From NCBI RefSeq assembly GCF_000620145.1, contig NZ_JHVM01000008.1, positions 62,001-126,000 on the forward strand: a DNA stretch of 64,000 nucleotides. Direction: 5' to 3'. Below the pieces are notes generated by a model. That model ran no database searches, was not told the DNA's origin, and saw only the letters and a list, made by a program, of their open reading frames with translations. Every line of letters begins with the position of its first letter. The stretch's first letter is position 1. This DNA is from Deefgea rivuli DSM 18356. Lineage in GTDB: Bacteria > Pseudomonadota > Gammaproteobacteria > Burkholderiales > Chitinibacteraceae. A program made the position numbers and the translations under genes. Shown in pieces: positions 1,848 to 51,523 of this stretch.

Positions 1848-2902
1848 TGAGCCATTTTTCTACCCGCCTGACCACTTGGCAGCGGGAGCATGGCCGCCAC
1901 CATTTACCATGGCAAGTTGCGGACGGCTACCGTGTTTGGCTGTCGGAAATTATGTTGCAGCAAACGCAAGTCACCACGGTACTGGATTATTACCCACGAT
2001 TTTTAGAGCGCTTTCCAACGCTAGCCGACTTGGCCGCAGCGCCGCTCGATGATGTTTTGGCGCTGTGGAGTGGACTGGGTTATTACACTCGCGCGCGCAA
2101 TCTACATGCCTGTGCGCAAGCCGTGGTGAGGGATTTCGGTGGGCAATTTCCACCCGATCCTGCCTTGATTACGACCTTACCCGGCATTGGCCGCAGTACC
2201 GCAGCAGCGATTGCAGCGTTTTCTTATGGCACGCGCGCGGCGATTTTAGATGGCAATGTCAAACGTGTACTAACGCGCTGGGCCGGCATCGAAGGGTTTC
2301 CGGGCGTTAAAGCGATTGAAAACCAACTCTGGACTTTGGCCGAAGCGCTCTTGCCTGAGCCAAACAGTGATAAAGACATCGCCACCACAGCGATCAAAGC
2401 ACACACGCAAGGCTTAATGGATTTGGGCGCAACAATCTGCACGCCCAAAAACCCAACGTGCCTCACCTGCCCGTTAAGCAGCGATTGCCAAGCGCGGATG
2501 AGCGGCAGACAAGCTGAGCTGCCGACCAAGAAACCGAAAAAAACCATTCCAGAAAAATCGACAGTGATGGTGTTACTGCGCAATACACAGGGTGAAATTT
2601 TGTTAGAGCGCCGCCCACCGACGGGCATTTGGGGCGGGCTTTGGAGCTTGCCCGAAGTGAGTACCACGCTCAGTGCAGCTGAAATCATGGATCAGCGTTT
2701 TGGCCTTGCGATTGAACTTGAACCCGCACTGCCAGAATTCATCCACGTCTTCACGCATTACCGCCTAACGATCACGCCACAGCCAGCCTACTTAATCGGT
2801 AGCAGTGCATTACGCGAAGACCAAACGGCATGGTTTTCCACAAGCGCAGCGCTAGCAGCAGGCATTCCTACACCGCTACGCAAGATCATCCATTCTATTT
2901 AA
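1847..2902 (+). CDS. mutY: A/G-specific adenine DNA glycosylase MutY
   Basis: MutY removes adenine mispaired with 8-oxoguanine in base-excision repair. At 351 residues it has the usual length. The glycosylase domain carries the catalytic Glu34 (SEIMLQQTQV), a helix-hairpin-helix (LPGIGRSTA, about 111-119) followed by catalytic Asp135 (ILDGNVKR), and the [4Fe-4S] ligands C198, C205, C208 and C214 in the C-x6-C-x2-C-x5-C pattern. The C-terminal about 115 residues form the NUDIX-like domain that reads 8-oxoG (LLERRPPTGIWGGLWSLPE). The start codon shares one base with the upstream stop, suggesting translational coupling. An asmA-mutY arrangement is common in betaproteobacteria. Confidence 0.97.
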   Translation: MSHFSTRLTTWQREHGRHHLPWQVADGYRVWLSEIMLQQTQVTTVLDYYPRFLERFPTLADLAAAPLDDVLALWSGLGYYTRARNLHACAQAVVRDFGGQFPPDPALITTLPGIGRSTAAAIAAFSYGTRAAILDGNVKRVLTRWAGIEGFPGVKAIENQLWTLAEALLPEPNSDKDIATTAIKAHTQGLMDLGATICTPKNPTCLTCPLSSDCQARMSGRQAELPTKKPKKTIPEKSTVMVLLRNTQGEILLERRPPTGIWGGLWSLPEVSTTLSAAEIMDQRFGLAIELEPALPEFIHVFTHYRLTITPQPAYLIGSSALREDQTAWFSTSAALAAGIPTPLRKIIHSI

Positions 2903-3054
2903 AGAGCTTGGCACCGCTGTTTACCCAGCCCTAGCTGTGTACTTTATGCGACTTGCCATAGCGCTTTGGCACAAATACTAAGTGGCACAACAAAGCTCTA
3001 AGCGGTAAAACTCACTCAACTGCCACTTGCTTCAGCACCTAAATTAATAGCAAT

Positions 3055-3103
3055 GGTATATTGACCAAGATCAATAAATACAATGCCTGTATTAACATAC
3101 CCT
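3055..3103. repeat. Dispersed GGTATA palindrome, family A copy 1
   Basis: GGTATATTGACC runs to TATTAACATACC over 49 bp, with imperfect arms and an A/T-rich centre. It matches the size and ends of the family seen throughout the window. It lies in the mutY-gltI gap and is a diverged copy. Confidence 0.5.
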
Positions 3104-3191
3104 TTGATTTAAATTAAAGACTCAATGTATTTTGATCCATATCACACTCTGCCAATAATCTAATTCCCCTAGGGGCTAATTCCTATATATC

Positions 3192-3221
3192 GCTTGGAGT
3201 ATCTATACCTATACTCCAAGC
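3192..3221. promoter_or_regulatory. Perfect 11-bp inverted repeat upstream of gltI
   Basis: GCTTGGAGTAT and ATACTCCAAGC flank an 8-bp spacer (CTATACCT), ending 27 bp before the gltI start. A partial third copy (TTGGAGTA, 3233-3240) overlaps the gltI ribosome-binding site. The symmetry suits a dimeric operator or an mRNA hairpin controlling the importer operon. The function is inferred. Apart from this repeat and the palindrome at 3055-3103, I see nothing else in the 346-bp gap 2903-3248. Confidence 0.5.
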
Positions 3222-3248
3222 CAACCCTTATATTGGAGTAGCTCTGCA

Positions 3249-4148
3249 ATGAAAGCCCGATACCCACTTGCCCTTGCCGTTTCCTTACTTTGCGCAGCAC
3301 AAGTTGGCGCAGAAGAACTCAGCGGTACTTTAAAAAAAATCAAAGAAACCCGCATGATTGTCCTTGGTCATCGTGATTCCTCAATTCCATTTTCCTATTT
3401 GGCCAACGACAGCAAACCGATTGGCTACTCGGCTGACTTAGCCAGCAAAATCGTTGACAGCATTAAGCAAGAGCTGAAAATGCCTAATTTGGAGGTGCGC
3501 TACAATTTAGTGACCTCGCAAACGCGAATCCCTCTCGTTCAAAATGGCACCGTCGATTTTGAATGCGGCTCGACGACCAATAATCTAGAGCGCCAAAAAC
3601 AAGTTGCTTTCTCTCTTGGTATTTTCGAAATCGGTACGCGGCTTTTAGTCAAAAAAGGCGGCCCATATAAAGATTTCGCTGATTTAGCTGGCAAAAATGT
3701 CGTCACCACCGCCGGCACAACTTCGGAACGCATTTTGAAAAAAATGAACGAAGAGAAAAAAATGGGCATGAGTATCATTAGCGCCAAAGATCACGGCGAA
3801 TCATTTTTGATGCTCGAATCTGGTCGCGCAGTTGCATTTATGATGGACGATGCGCTACTCGCCGGTGAAATGGCCAAAGCAAAAAAACCAAGTGATTGGG
3901 AAATTGTTGGCAAAGCACAATCGAATGAAATTTATGGTTGCATGATGCGCAAAGACGATCCTGCATTTAAAAAGGTTGTTGATAACGCGCTGGCCAGCAC
4001 ATTCAAATCCGGTGAAATTAATACCATTTATAAACGCTGGTTCTTAAGCCCAATTCCACCTAAAGGCTTAAATTTGAATTTCCCAATGTCGGATGAATTA
4101 AAAGAACTGATTGCCACGCCAACAGATAAATCTGCCGAACAAATGTAA
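3249..4148 (+). CDS. gltI: Glutamate/aspartate ABC transporter, periplasmic binding protein
   Basis: The protein binds Glu/Asp in the periplasm and delivers it to the GltJK permease. A signal peptide (residues 1-21, ending QVGA) precedes a solute-binding family 3 domain. Stretches such as RIPLVQNGTVDFECGSTTNNLERQKQ and ESGRAVAFMMDDALLAGEMAKAKKPSDWEIVGK closely follow E. coli GltI, and the 299-residue length agrees. GGAG lies about 10 bases before the ATG. It is first in a gltI-J-K-L operon, with a 95-bp gap to gltJ that may let it be expressed above the permease genes. Confidence 0.95.
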   Translation: MKARYPLALAVSLLCAAQVGAEELSGTLKKIKETRMIVLGHRDSSIPFSYLANDSKPIGYSADLASKIVDSIKQELKMPNLEVRYNLVTSQTRIPLVQNGTVDFECGSTTNNLERQKQVAFSLGIFEIGTRLLVKKGGPYKDFADLAGKNVVTTAGTTSERILKKMNEEKKMGMSIISAKDHGESFLMLESGRAVAFMMDDALLAGEMAKAKKPSDWEIVGKAQSNEIYGCMMRKDDPAFKKVVDNALASTFKSGEINTIYKRWFLSPIPPKGLNLNFPMSDELKELIATPTDKSAEQM

Positions 4149-4243
4149 GTCGTATACGCATAGCGCCAGATAGCAATTTAAATCGCAAGGTTTATTGAAT
4201 GGAAATAAAGCAAATCTGGCGCTACGCTTTGGGAGGATGAACA

Positions 4244-4990
4244 ATGAATTATCACTGGGATTGGGGCGTATTTTTTAAGCCCACCGGCATCGGTACTGAA
4301 ATTTATTTAAATTGGTTTATCACCGGCTTAGGCTGGACGATTGCATTAGCACTATGTAGCTGGATAATCGCACTCAGCTTAGGCACGGTGATCGGCGTAG
4401 CGCGTACTTTACCTGGGTCATTTTTACCGCGCATCGCTGCCGCTTATGTGACACTATTTCGCAATGTGCCGCTCTTGGTGCAATTATTTATCTGGTACTT
4501 TATGGTGCCCGATTTTTTACCCGAAAATCTACAAATCTGGTTTAAACAAGACCTTAATCCTGCCACCAGTGCCTTTATTAGCACTATTATTTGCTTAGGG
4601 CTCTTTACCGCCGCTCGCGTTGCCGAACAAGTTCGCACCGGCATTCAAGCGCTATCCAAAGGCCAAAGCAATGCCGCTCTAGCGCTCGGCCTGCGCTTGC
4701 CGCAACTTTATAAAGACGTTTTATTACCGCAAGCATTTCGAATTATTATTCCACCAATGACTAGCGAATTTTTAAATGTATTTAAAAACTCATCAGTCGC
4801 CTCATTGATTGGTTTGATGGAATTACTGGCGCAAACTAAGCAAACAGCAGAATTCACTGCGAATTTATTTGAAGCGTTTACACTCGCTACTTTAATTTAC
4901 TTCACGCTCAATATGAGCTTAATGCTATTGATGCGTTGGGTTGAAAAGCGCGTTCAAGTGCCAGGCTTAATCGCATTGGGAGGCAAATAA
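4244..4990 (+). CDS. gltJ: Glutamate/aspartate ABC transporter permease GltJ
   Basis: Inner-membrane permease of the His/Glu/Gln/Arg/opine class, 248 residues, with about five hydrophobic helices. The EAA loop that contacts the ATPase is visible near residues 126-155 (ARVAEQVRTGIQALSKGQSNAALALGL). A GGGAGGATGAACA ribosome-binding site precedes the ATG. The gene abuts gltK with no gap, which fits a heterodimeric GltJ-GltK channel. Confidence 0.94.
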   Translation: MNYHWDWGVFFKPTGIGTEIYLNWFITGLGWTIALALCSWIIALSLGTVIGVARTLPGSFLPRIAAAYVTLFRNVPLLVQLFIWYFMVPDFLPENLQIWFKQDLNPATSAFISTIICLGLFTAARVAEQVRTGIQALSKGQSNAALALGLRLPQLYKDVLLPQAFRIIIPPMTSEFLNVFKNSSVASLIGLMELLAQTKQTAEFTANLFEAFTLATLIYFTLNMSLMLLMRWVEKRVQVPGLIALGGK

Positions 4991-5656
4991 ATGGACTTCT
5001 CAAATATTCTGCCAGCACTGCCTAGCATGATGGAAGGCTTATGGGTCACGATCAAACTCACCATTATGGCCGTTATCGGTGGTGTTGCGATTGGTACTTT
5101 ATTAGCTTTGGCTCGGCTTTCTAAAAGTAAAATCCTGTCTAATTTAGCAGGTTTTTATGTTAATTATTTCCGCTCGATTCCGCTACTTTTGGTCATCACT
5201 TGGTTTTATTTCATGGTGCCCTTTATTATTGGTTGGGTCACCGGAACGAATCGCCCAGTTGGTGCGCTAACATCCTGTTTAGTTGCATTTATGTTATTTG
5301 AAGCCGCGTATTTCTGCGAAATTGTTCGTGCGGGGATTCAATCCATCGGCAAAGGGCAGATTAATGCCGCTTATGCTTTGGGGATGAATTATCGCCAAGC
5401 AATGCAATTGATTGTATTGCCACAAGCCTTTCGTAAAATGATGCCTTTATTGCTACAGCAATCGATTATTTTATTTCAAGACACATCTTTAGTTTACGCC
5501 GTTGGCATTATGGATTTTTTAAATACCGCGCGCTCACGCGGCGATATTATTGGTCAGCCGCATGAATTTTTACTCTTTGCTGGATTGATTTATTTCTTAA
5601 TTAGCGTAAGCGCATCTAGCTTGGTAACGCAGTTAAACAAGAGGTTTAGCGTATGA
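4991..5656 (+). CDS. gltK: Glutamate/aspartate ABC transporter permease GltK
   Basis: Second permease subunit, 221 residues, with several membrane helices and the EAA loop at about 109-135 ([26 protein letters not shown]). It starts immediately after the gltJ stop, and its own stop overlaps the gltL start (ATGA), so all three are likely translated from one message. Confidence 0.94.
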
Positions 5657-48031: not shown

Positions 48032-48913
48032 ATGGATTTTTCTGCTAAATCAATTGCTGGGCAAATCGCCAGTATGAAAACGGATGCACTCAGTCACTTA
48101 CTCAATCCTCAAGCGGGCAGCAGTTTTGATATTGCCCAGCTCGCCAGTGGCTACATCAATAGCCAGCAAGGTGCTCAAGCCAGTAGCGGTGTGAATAGCA
48201 TCGCAGGGCTCTCGCCGATTGGTCGCAATACTGCCCTTTCCGATCCTGAATCGGCGTACAAAATGATGACGGAAATTAACCATCGCTCCGTCATATATCA
48301 AGCTCAATCCGCCGCCTTAAGCGATATGCAATCGGGCGTGAAGACACTGAGCCAATCGGCAGCACAATTGAGCAATATCAGCGCCGACAGCCCTTTTTCC
48401 AGCGTTAAATCACAATTGCAGAGCTTTGCCGATCAATACAATAGCTGGCGCAGAGAATTTGATGCCGATAGCCAAGATCCTGAATTGCTCGGCAATACCC
48501 AAGCCGCTCAAGCGGCGCGCCATGCATTGCAAAGTAGTATCAGCAGCCCATTTCATGGCGCAAACAACGGCCTGCAAGGGCTGTCCGCCCTTGGATTAGA
48601 AATTGATCCTGTTACTAAAATGGCAAAGCTCAATACTGAAACGCTAGAAAAAACTTGGAACAAGCAAGCTAGCGATGCGACCGCTGCCATTCACGATTTC
48701 AGCAGCAATTTTAGCGAAGCGGCAAATTTACTCGTTTCTAACGGCAATTTTTTCCAAAAGCAGCTGAGCAATTTAGATCGTGCTATCGATTACATCCACG
48801 ACAACCAAACCGCGCTACAAAGTGAATTTGGTCTTGGTGATGCGCCAAAAATGTCAGCACGCGTTGCTCAAGCGCTGGCTGAATATCAAAAATCCATGCA
48901 GCTAAGCACCTAA
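48032..48913 (+). CDS. FliD-like protein (possible flagellar-cap relative)
   Basis: 293 residues, no signal peptide, GGGAG seven bases before the ATG. The middle and C-terminal parts (LQSFADQYNSWRREFDADS, LQGLSALGLEIDPVTKMAKLNTETLEKTWN, LVSNGNFFQKQLSNLDRAIDYIHDNQTALQ) resemble the C-terminal half of the flagellar filament cap FliD, in which a GL.ID...G.L..D segment precedes a helical region. The N-terminus is Ala/Ser/Gln-rich. It is far shorter than FliD (usually over 400) and has no flagellar neighbours, so the relationship is suggestive only. Confidence 0.6.
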   Translation: MDFSAKSIAGQIASMKTDALSHLLNPQAGSSFDIAQLASGYINSQQGAQASSGVNSIAGLSPIGRNTALSDPESAYKMMTEINHRSVIYQAQSAALSDMQSGVKTLSQSAAQLSNISADSPFSSVKSQLQSFADQYNSWRREFDADSQDPELLGNTQAAQAARHALQSSISSPFHGANNGLQGLSALGLEIDPVTKMAKLNTETLEKTWNKQASDATAAIHDFSSNFSEAANLLVSNGNFFQKQLSNLDRAIDYIHDNQTALQSEFGLGDAPKMSARVAQALAEYQKSMQLST

Positions 48914-48968: not shown

Positions 48969-49048
48969 TATACATAATTTTGAATCTAGGGTTATTCCCG
49001 ACTCGGAATAGCTTGACGTATCCAAAACAAAACTGCGATTATTAAAAG

Positions 49049-49102
49049 ATGAATTCGATCAAACATACCCTTTCAGTTTCGTATTTCTGGTGGCGCCTCT
49101 AG
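49049..49102 (+). CDS. Trp-rich leader peptide of trpS (17 codons)
   Basis: ATG at 49049, stop TAG at 49100-49102. The translation is MNSIKHTLSVSYFWWRL, with two adjacent Trp codons (TGG TGG, 49088-49093) four codons before the stop. The second Trp codon falls in the first strand of the leader hairpin. This is the pattern of trp-operon leader peptides. A TTGACG hexamer at 49013-49018 may be the -35 box, but no good -10 follows. The ribosome-binding site is weak (TAAAAG). Confidence 0.82.
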   Translation: MNSIKHTLSVSYFWWRL

Positions 49103-49163
49103 GCGGCACTGGGTTTGTTTGTCTCTACAAAACCTGCCGCCGGATACGGTGACAGGTTTTTTT
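49091..49163 (+). promoter_or_regulatory. Ribosome-mediated transcription attenuator of trpS
   Basis: Four strands: 1 TGGCGCC (49091-49097), 2 GGCGGCA...GGTTT (49102-49116), 3 AAACCTGCCGCC (49130-49141), 4 CAGGTTTT (49153-49160) plus T-run. 1:2 pair over seven positions with one mismatch. 2:3 pair as GGCGGCA/TGCCGCC and GGTTT/AAACC (antiterminator). 3:4 pair as AAAACCTG/CAGGTTTT around CCG-GATA-CGG and run into TTTTTTT (terminator). If Trp-tRNA is low, a ribosome stalled at the TGG pair would mask strand 1, so 2:3 forms and trpS is transcribed. Confidence 0.83.
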
Positions 49164-49212
49164 GTTTTTACCCCTCTCACATCCGACGGCTCCCATATCA
49201 AGGAGCAGCACC

Positions 49213-50241
49213 ATGTCCGCAGCAACGCCCTCTACAAACCCATCGCCCAGTATCGTCGTCACGGGTGATCGCACCGTCGGTCCTTTACACTTAGGCCACT
49301 ATGCAGGCTCGCTACAAACGCGTCTCGCACTACAAGAAACCCACAACCCCTTTATTTTATTGGCCGATACGCAAGCGCTCTCAGATCATCAAGGCGACTA
49401 CCGCAAAGTGCGTCAGGCCGTGATTGATGTGGCACTGGATTACTTAGCCGTCGGCATTGATCCGCAAAAATCGACGATCTTGATTCAATCGATGGTGCCC
49501 GAACTGGCCGAACTGTCGTTTTACTTGATGAATTTAGTCTCAGTTGCGCGCTTAGAACGCAATCCAACGCTGAAATCAGAATTGCGTGCCAAGGGTGCAA
49601 ATAGTGAAATTAGCGCCGGATTTTTAAGCTACCCCGTGAGCCAAGCGGCAGATATCACGGCGCTGCGCGGTACGCTGATTCCGGTAGGTGAAGATCAATT
49701 GCCAATGATTGAGCAAACCAATGAAATTGTACGGCGCTTTAATCGCATGGTTGGCGAGCCGATTCTGAATGAATGCGAGGCACTACTTTCTAACACGACT
49801 CGTCTACCCGGCCTTGATGGCAAAGGCAAAATGAGCCGCGCACTCGGCAATCATCTTGCGTTATCAGCCAGCGCGGATGAGATCACCCAAGCGGTAAATA
49901 AAATGTACACCGATGCTCAGCACCTCACCATTACCAGCCCCGGCCAAATTGAAGGCAATGTCGTGTTTGCCTTTTTAGATGCATTCGATCCTGACACCCA
50001 ACACGTCGCAGCGCTCAAAGCGCAATACGCGCACGGTGGTTTGGCCGATAGTGTCATCAAAGCGCGTCTGAACGACGTTTTGCAAGCGTTGATTACGCCG
50101 ATTCGAGAACGCCGTGCTGAATACGCACAAGACACCGATGCCGTGCTGTCGATGCTGCTATGCGGTTCGGCCAAAGCGCGCCAAACTGCGGCACTCACTT
50201 TACACAAAGTCAAAACAGCAATGGGAATGTACTACTTCTAG
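49213..50241 (+). CDS. trpS: Tryptophanyl-tRNA synthetase
   Basis: Class I aminoacyl-tRNA synthetase charging tRNA-Trp, 342 residues. HIGH motif is LHLGHYAG (His26-His29) and the KMSKS loop is GKMSRALG. Start at 49213 (MSAATPST) with AAGGAG eight bases upstream; the longer frame to 49162 begins inside the attenuator U-run and is rejected. Transcription is likely controlled by the leader described at 49049-49163. It lies alone between the FliD-like gene and a response regulator gene. Confidence 0.94.
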   Translation: MSAATPSTNPSPSIVVTGDRTVGPLHLGHYAGSLQTRLALQETHNPFILLADTQALSDHQGDYRKVRQAVIDVALDYLAVGIDPQKSTILIQSMVPELAELSFYLMNLVSVARLERNPTLKSELRAKGANSEISAGFLSYPVSQAADITALRGTLIPVGEDQLPMIEQTNEIVRRFNRMVGEPILNECEALLSNTTRLPGLDGKGKMSRALGNHLALSASADEITQAVNKMYTDAQHLTITSPGQIEGNVVFAFLDAFDPDTQHVAALKAQYAHGGLADSVIKARLNDVLQALITPIRERRAEYAQDTDAVLSMLLCGSAKARQTAALTLHKVKTAMGMYYF

Positions 50242-50341
50242 GGTACTAATAGATTTCACTAAGCTGTCAAGATTTTAAAAACAATCTATAAAGAGCAAGT
50301 GCAGTGAGCGCGGCTTGCGCTTTCTTTTTATGGATGAGTTT

Positions 50342-51523
50342 ATGCCCCTCAAACTTTTAATTGTCGATCACGATAGTGCATCCCGCGAGAAACTGCAGTC
50401 CTGCGTCGGTGGGATTTTTGAAACTCAACAAGCCGCCACCGGCATGGCCGCACTCGCTTTTTTAGAACAATTCAAACCTGATGTGCTTCTGATTGATGTC
50501 GATATTTCCGATATCAGCGGTTATGAAATTTGCCAAAGTTTTAAACAACACGCACCCGCTTGTCATACGCTATTCATCTCTAGCCAAGACAGCCGAGAAG
50601 CCTATCTTGCCGCCTACGAAGCCGGTGCCGACGATTTTATTAAAAAACCATTTCAAAGTGATGAGTTACACCAAAAACTCATCGTCTTTAAACGCAGCAT
50701 CGAAACCAATCAGCAATTGCAATCTTCGATCCAAGATGCCACGCATACGGCGCTGCAAGCGATTTCCAATTCGGCAGAGTTGGGCACCGTCATTAATTTC
50801 TTCAAAAAAGCCAGCTTAGCCAACGACAAAACCGCACTACTGGATGCACTGGTGCAAACCACGGCGAAATTTAATCTGCAAGTGGCCGCCCAAATTCGCC
50901 ACAACGGCCAAACGACGACGCTTAATAGCCAAGGCCGTAGCAGCCCGTTGGAAGAACATATGCTAGAAACATTGGCGCAAGATTCTCAGCGAATTTATGA
51001 AATGGGCAAACGTCTGATTATCAATTTCCCTCGGATTATTTTGCAAATCAAAGCCATGCCCACCGATCAAGCCGATTTGTGCGGTCGCTTACGCGATCAC
51101 ATCGCCATTTTGGTTGAAGCCGCAGAAAACCGTTTTGACAATATTTTGAACGAAGAACAAATTCGCGGTCAGCAAGCGCTTACCTTAAATGCAATTGGTC
51201 TGATTCAGGCTTCAATCCAAAAATTAGAAACTGAATATCGCGAGCAAGCAGGCGCTTCGGTGCGACTGTTTAGCGAACTACAAACCAAATTCGAGCAAAA
51301 AATGGTCTTCTTAGGCCTGACTGATTCACAAGAAAATCAACTGTCGAATATGATAGAGCAAAGCACCCTTGAAGCTACGCAAATTTACGATCAAGGCTTA
51401 TCACTTGATGATGAATTTTCGCATGTGATTGCCACTTTGCTTTACCTCACCCAGCAATCGCCTAATGCCGCAGAAAAAACCACAACGCTTAGCTCTGATA
51501 GCGACGATATTCTTCTATTTTAA
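50342..51523 (+). CDS. Receiver-domain protein with unknown output domain
   Basis: 393 residues from the start at 50342; ATGs at 50330 and 50315 are alternatives. Receiver domain (about 1-120): acidic pair in LIVDHD, phosphoacceptor D52 (VLLIDVDISDISG), and the conserved Lys in DDFIKKPF. The usual Pro after the phosphoacceptor is Ser. The C-terminal 270 residues are mostly helical (SIQKLETEYREQAGASVRLFSELQTKFEQKM) and match no output domain I recognise. It has no adjacent kinase. Confidence 0.8.
   Translation: MPLKLLIVDHDSASREKLQSCVGGIFETQQAATGMAALAFLEQFKPDVLLIDVDISDISGYEICQSFKQHAPACHTLFISSQDSREAYLAAYEAGADDFIKKPFQSDELHQKLIVFKRSIETNQQLQSSIQDATHTALQAISNSAELGTVINFFKKASLANDKTALLDALVQTTAKFNLQVAAQIRHNGQTTTLNSQGRSSPLEEHMLETLAQDSQRIYEMGKRLIINFPRIILQIKAMPTDQADLCGRLRDHIAILVEAAENRFDNILNEEQIRGQQALTLNAIGLIQASIQKLETEYREQAGASVRLFSELQTKFEQKMVFLGLTDSQENQLSNMIEQSTLEATQIYDQGLSLDDEFSHVIATLLYLTQQSPNAAEKTTTLSSDSDDILLF

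Follow-up and report, generated by a model that had tools for sequence, protein, structure and literature searches.

In the E. coli trpL leader, attenuation involves tandem Trp codons, strands 1-4 and an intrinsic terminator, and in the pheST attenuator the amino acid sensed is Phe. A 2010 paper by Vecchione and Sello reportedly names an auxiliary, antibiotic-resistant TrpRS gene in its title, and one by Lopatovskaya et al. of the same year is said to treat how operons for amino acids and aminoacyl-tRNAs are attenuated, and a prediction may be found in it. According to the available text of the published accounts, pheST of gammaproteobacteria is an aminoacyl-tRNA synthetase operon subject to classical attenuation and trpS2 of S. 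avermitilis has a candidate attenuator (PMC1262725), the trpS attenuator of S. lividans has a leaderless leader ORF, MMTRTCTQLWRAA (PMC8079986), and a small leader CDS precedes trpS in Caulobacter (PMC4117421). The open-licence PMC literature, outside which most subscription journals lie, yielded no report, in the text available, that trpS of a proteobacterium is under a Trp attenuator. An earlier note on this DNA stated that, to its knowledge, trpS is not a standard example of attenuation in proteobacteria; for Streptomyces trpS genes, however, attenuation has been predicted or reported.

We examined a trpS gene of Deefgea rivuli DSM 18356, located in a stretch of 64,000 nucleotides that we call the window, and we put the probability at about 0.92 that this additional, TrpRS II-type gene is controlled by a Trp transcription attenuator that is leaderless and ribosome-mediated, with a further element, strand 5, most likely adding a second, post-transcriptional check. 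All features described here are on the + strand. The leader peptide ORF, MNSIKHTLSVSYFWWRL, extends from 49049 to 49102 and consists of 17 codons, ATG...TTC TGG TGG CGC CTC TAG, the start codon being also the predicted transcription start. The ORF ending FWWRL that the earlier note had described is thus present, with the paired Trp codons TGG TGG, the presumed sensor, at 49088-49093. Strand 1 (49090-49097) pairs with strand 2 (49102-49109), whose first base is also the final one of the stop codon and lies 14 nt past the start of the first Trp codon (counted by hand), and which can pair instead with strand 3 at 49135-49141. The inner part of this antiterminator hairpin 2:3, formed by GGTTTGT and ACAAAACC, covers 49112-49134, and 87.6% of its cells are paired in 15 relatives. 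Strand 3 (49129-49142), whose core at 49135-49141 is the part shared with strand 2, is the 5′ arm of a terminator, which strand 4 (49147-49160) and a T-run (49157-49163) complete; the fold and the terminator scan both identified this intrinsic terminator (49147-49163). Strand 3L, made up of the terminator 5′ arm and the apical loop (49136-49145), is complementary to strand 5 (ATCCGACGGC, 49181-49190), a conserved sequence located between 32 and 23 nt before the trpS start codon. Strand 5, the probable leaderless nature of the leader and the status of trpS as a second TrpRS gene did not figure in the earlier note.

The minimum free energy fold of the leader was −43.7 kcal/mol, whereas shuffles averaged −27.2 (z −4.8), and 0/200 shuffles were as good; stems 1:2, 2:3 and 3:4 and the T-run, as previously proposed, are all present. 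Computed separately, the helix energies in the window were −11.1 (1:2), −18.5 (2:3) and −17.9 (3:4) kcal/mol, and the alternative helices are energetically balanced there. In Rfam, the single match of the window leader was mir-318 (E 8.4, far below the gathering score), with no T-box or other listed leader, and the leaders of 8 plasmid-collection loci matched no family.

Because of this leader anatomy, we infer attenuation, and with it stalling, termination and the signal that is sensed. When Trp-tRNA is ample, the ribosome would reach the leader stop codon and cover strand 2, so that 3:4 would form and transcription would stop. When Trp-tRNA charging fails, whether by Trp shortage or because the other TrpRS of the cell is inhibited or inactivated, the ribosome would stall at TGG TGG, 2:3 would form and trpS would be transcribed. 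At the level of sequence, the earlier note's reading of the locus as a ribosome-mediated Trp attenuator is supported.

The gene itself (49213-50241), preceded by the Shine-Dalgarno sequence AAGGAG (49200-49205), was assigned by homology and its ORF to a TrpRS II-type tryptophanyl-tRNA synthetase of 342 aa. It is apparently alone between a gene at 48032-48913, whose sole domain match is the FliD C-terminal domain, and a response regulator gene (50315-51523). The closest PDB relative of the protein is Deinococcus radiodurans TrpRS II (1yi8, 2a4m; E 2e-116). The 3.7-Mb genome has two TrpRS genes, and the other one, a 450-aa frame without a visible WW leader upstream, encodes a protein 31-32% identical to the window TrpRS. 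The claim that the leader controls trpS was right as to an aminoacyl-tRNA synthetase gene, but the gene is an additional, TrpRS II-type one; since the genome encodes another TrpRS, what had been called restoring TrpS would amount to inducing a second enzyme.

Every one of the 151 homologues has Gln at the position equivalent to His43, where the genome's other TrpRS has His. In the available text of one study, the H43 to Asn change in TrpRS gives indolmycin resistance (PMC4899734), and it is therefore plausible that the window TrpRS is an inhibitor-insensitive second enzyme; this Gln, however, is constant throughout the family, so it does not have to reflect adaptation. In the window TrpRS, the sequence at the KMSKS motif is KMSRA, as it is in 11/151 homologues; 136 have KMSKS. 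A homologue was present in 57/399 genomes in the order search and in 10/369 and 26/398 in the class- and phylum-wide searches; because so few of the searched genomes have one, we consider the gene patchy. In a chosen list of 77 genomes, most of which carry the window-type gene, nine had a single trpS match, in all nine cases of the window type. The leader was found in four of these (L132, L135, L137, L139) and in none of the other five (L134, L138, L142, L144, L146). The four are genomes of one genus, g63; no TrpRS besides the attenuated one was found in them, so that a presumably essential trpS would be under attenuation in these four.

A consensus scan detected one promoter-like site upstream of the window leader and one terminator-like site in the leader region; because shuffles give 0.6 and 0.3 such sites on average, the scan by itself is not significant. 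The predicted promoter (49013-49042) consists of a −35 element, TTGACG (49013-49018), an 18-nt spacer and a −10 element, GATTAT (49037-49042), after TGC, and the −10 hexamer ends 6 nt before the leader ATG. In the relatives, 56/125 leaders had TATACT at −14 to −12 from the leader ATG and 59/125 had TTGAC at −38 to −34, while a Shine-Dalgarno-like sequence preceded the leader ATG in 1/125 and the trpS ATG in 86/125, counts that include three wrong leader starts (L057, L062, L078). Eighteen trpS starts without a Shine-Dalgarno sequence remain, and promoter matches were poor in some leaders (e.g., L120, L136, L149). It is the promoter spacing, and only this, that suggests to us that the leader is probably leaderless, with transcription starting at the A of the ATG, a −10 box ending 6-8 nt before it and no Shine-Dalgarno sequence; the ribosome would then initiate on a leaderless RNA. 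A start of this kind has been described, in the text available, for S. meliloti trpL, the RNA of which begins at the trpL ATG (PMC7298713), and for S. lividans trpL1 and trpL2 (PMC8079986).

For the conservation analysis, 158 loci were collected; two of them encode the other TrpRS and were excluded, and the 156 that remained, at ≥50% identity, have 151 distinct upstreams, a set biased towards close relatives. A Trp leader was found in 125/151 upstreams, of which 119 have WW and 6, added by hand, have one W only (L006, L025, L026, L027, L029, L093); dinucleotide-shuffled upstreams gave a WW leader in 31/7550. The remaining 26/151 had no leader; among these are the loci of f41, a family of the order, all ten of which lack it. 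The N-termini of the leader peptides vary widely among clades, while position, WW and stems are kept. A terminator hairpin with a T-rich stretch was also found by script in relatives, the U-tract being weak in Burkholderia-type sequences. In L006, Lys replaces the first Trp codon (YYKWRP) with the stems intact, so that this locus offers a natural comparison between a single Trp codon and a pair. In L025, L026, L027 and L029, a single-Trp variant leader (e.g., MKATQATLFATTPAQSWYYRQYMLLAA) extends through the strand 2 region, and 3L:5 pairing is kept.

The leader is not confined to the relatives in this set. In a plasmid collection, 89 records had a match, and 8/11 regions fetched carried a WW leader (Variovorax, Rhizobium, Aeromonas, Klebsiella, Agrobacterium, Methylocystis, Vibrio and Roseibium), the three without one being from Acinetobacter, Staphylococcus and Phocaeicola. 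Class- and phylum-wide searches found a WW leader in 17/30 loci, among which L207 (with leader) and L208 and L209 (without) duplicate loci already counted; 9 of the 13 misses were below 50% identity. The Trp leader of trpS is thus conserved in many proteobacteria, alpha- and gammaproteobacteria included. On the Klebsiella pneumoniae plasmid (L167, record 191477-194851), mtr, encoding tryptophan permease, is followed by the WW leader MNRNVVISHLRRWWLPA and then by a trpS of the window type; strand 5 is weak there (z −0.5). On the Staphylococcus epidermidis plasmid (L172), a related trpS lies next to an MFS transporter gene and has neither a WW leader nor a T-box match in Rfam, and such trpS genes are found on staphylococcal plasmids.

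When an element model was run on 23 genomes of the window's family, scoring only 150 of 2000-5000 candidates per genome, it gave 12 strong matches, all at trpS and mostly to sequences in the model. Four of the weak matches away from trpS were inspected and were coding sequence or an ordinary terminator. A promoter-plus-TGGTGG pattern, with matches taken by pattern alone, occurred at 17 places in the D. rivuli genome (G000), trpS included, as compared with 4 for the reversed pattern. In the same genome, trpE is preceded by a 22-codon ORF, MAFYSTPTRETGFAGLAWRWRR (L161, reverse strand, 1308-1376), which contains two Trp codons almost next to each other and whose end is 46 nt from the trpE ATG. 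Because no hairpin plus T-run is visible in the gap between this ORF and trpE, the ORF may represent a Trp leader of a different kind.

Helix conservation was determined in two alignments, A1 with 15 Chitinibacteraceae-type sequences and A2 with 39/40 Burkholderia- and Herbaspirillum-type sequences of two clusters (L054, with a misassigned trpS start, was left out). In A1, 100% (1:2), 93.8% (2:3) and 98.5% (3:4) of the cells were paired; the values in A2 were 96.0%, 84.7% and 98.9%, and the inner part of 2:3 was variable in relatives. The mutually exclusive 1:2/3:4 and 2:3 helices are therefore kept in relatives, as are the paired Trp codons, which is what the earlier note had expected. Its further expectation of covariation in all three stems was borne out in part: covariation was modest overall, with some in the terminator, but weak in 2:3, and 1:2 hardly varies. 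If each strand is constrained by the others, modest stem covariation is what one would expect, and because stem 1:2 barely varies we describe it as conserved rather than proven.

The strongest covariation among the leader helices is that of 3L:5. Strand 5 lies between the terminator and the trpS Shine-Dalgarno sequence, its end being a median 21 nt from the trpS ATG (interquartile range 18-25). In A1, 98.7% of the 3L:5 cells were paired and 5 cells, in 2 pairs, were doubly changed; in A2, 91.6% were paired and 41 cells, in 5 pairs, were doubly changed, counts that ignore relatedness, for which the between-lineage swap test below corrects in part. The covariation scores were reached by 0/500 shuffles and include positions of the terminator loop (columns 178-180 of A2). 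In the window, 9/10 positions pair (C49140/A49186 is mismatched), and the z is only −1.8. A duplex test on 106 of the 125 leaders, the other 19 having no clear trpS start or too little spacer, gave a mean z of −3.2, with 74.5% below −2. Cognate 3L:5 duplexes averaged −23.4 kcal/mol as compared with −16.3 for non-cognate ones from other protein clusters, and when one representative of each of 16 clusters was permuted between clusters, z was −6.5 and no re-pairing was as good. In a few clusters the cognate pairing was not special (L120, L149, partly L037, L122 and L089). Since automatic terminator finding gave none in L164, L170 and L171, we also used a terminator-free test, in which z was below −2 in 77/107 main-set loci and in 17/23 loci of a second set, as compared with 1/23 with the strand reversed; the second set comprised the 8 plasmid-collection loci, of which L163 (Variovorax) is from a betaproteobacterium, and L211-L225, and did not include L227, which has a WW leader. 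A hairpin of the strand 5 end with the trpS Shine-Dalgarno sequence was considered and rejected (mean z −0.41, 6/106 below −2). Taken from sequence comparison, there is good evidence that 3L and strand 5 have been selected to pair.

Any function of strand 5 is a matter of what such a helix might do. We consider it somewhat probable that, in alpha-, beta- and gammaproteobacteria, the leader works as an attenuator of five strands in which one segment controls the gene twice, through 3:4 at transcription and then through 3L:5 at translation or mRNA stability, in cis or in trans. A narrower hypothesis is that strand 5 functions in cis only, as a translational counterpart of strand 4: strand 3, freed from 2:3, would pair with strand 5, and the resulting helix just upstream of the Shine-Dalgarno sequence would hinder trpS translation. 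The location of strand 5 close to the gene fits this hypothesis, as does the 3:5 hairpin of the window, whose energy (−18.3 kcal/mol) equals those of 2:3 and 3:4. However, equilibrium folding of 106 loci favoured 3L:5 in 25-29% and 3:4 in 59-64%, and the predicted accessibility of the Shine-Dalgarno sequence was unchanged between folding states in these loci, and we lean slightly against a role in cis only.

Alternatively, strand 5 might be a target in trans, such that the terminated leader (~115 nt) is a small RNA that pairs with strand 5 and lowers the translation or stability of trpS mRNA when Trp-tRNA is plentiful. The covariation of terminator-loop positions with strand 5, which the constraint of the 3:4 stem does not explain, is in favour of this, and there is a precedent, in the available text on S. 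meliloti, in rnTrpL, which acts in trans on trpDC mRNA (PMC7298713). Nevertheless, 3L and strand 5 are tens of nucleotides apart in one transcript and should pair more easily in cis, and we regard action in trans as possible but rather doubtful. That the complementarity merely follows from the repetition of GGCGGC, a motif common to strands 2, 4 and 5 in many clades, is very unlikely given the between-lineage swap test, the loop-position covariation and the clades with other cores that keep the pairing (L137, L116, L123; L215, L219, L224). Hardly credible, even though a terminator-like hairpin alone is common, is the view that there is no attenuation and that the WW ORF encodes a functional small protein and the hairpin is a plain terminator of an upstream transcript, since the peptide N-termini diverge while position, WW and stems stay, the leader promoter elements keep a near-constant spacing and 2:3 pairing is retained.

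If the reading as a Trp attenuator with a fifth strand is right, many proteobacteria would have a second TrpRS that is linked to Trp-tRNA charging, plasmid-borne copies among them, and the same would hold for the four genomes in which no other TrpRS was found. Strand 5 is a concrete, mutable feature, apparently selected for pairing, and it makes testable whether the terminator segment of an attenuator also regulates its own gene after transcription.

Compared with known systems, the trp operon attenuators (E. coli trpL, S. meliloti trpL-trpE(G)) have in common with the window leader the tandem Trp codons, strands 1-4 and a terminator; they control biosynthesis, whereas the window leader, in which we describe strand 5, would control a synthetase gene. 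The pheST attenuator, like the window leader, controls an aminoacyl-tRNA synthetase but is Phe-sensing. TrpRS II of D. radiodurans, the partner of a nitric oxide synthase, is like the window TrpRS a second TrpRS, and the likeness is one of protein sequence alone. In the available text on it, that enzyme is induced upon radiation damage (PMC9437257). The auxiliary trpS of Streptomyces, as far as the available accounts describe it, resembles the window locus in having attenuation before a trpS gene, a likeness drawn from attenuation and not from TrpRS type. The S. lividans leader, from another phylum, has one Trp codon and, in the text available, no reported uridine-enriched stretch, whereas the window has TGG TGG and a T-run. 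Strand 5 is a feature of the window leader that the available Streptomyces trpS accounts do not mention. By these accounts, attenuation of one of two trpS genes was already known in Streptomyces, and strand 5 is the surprising part.
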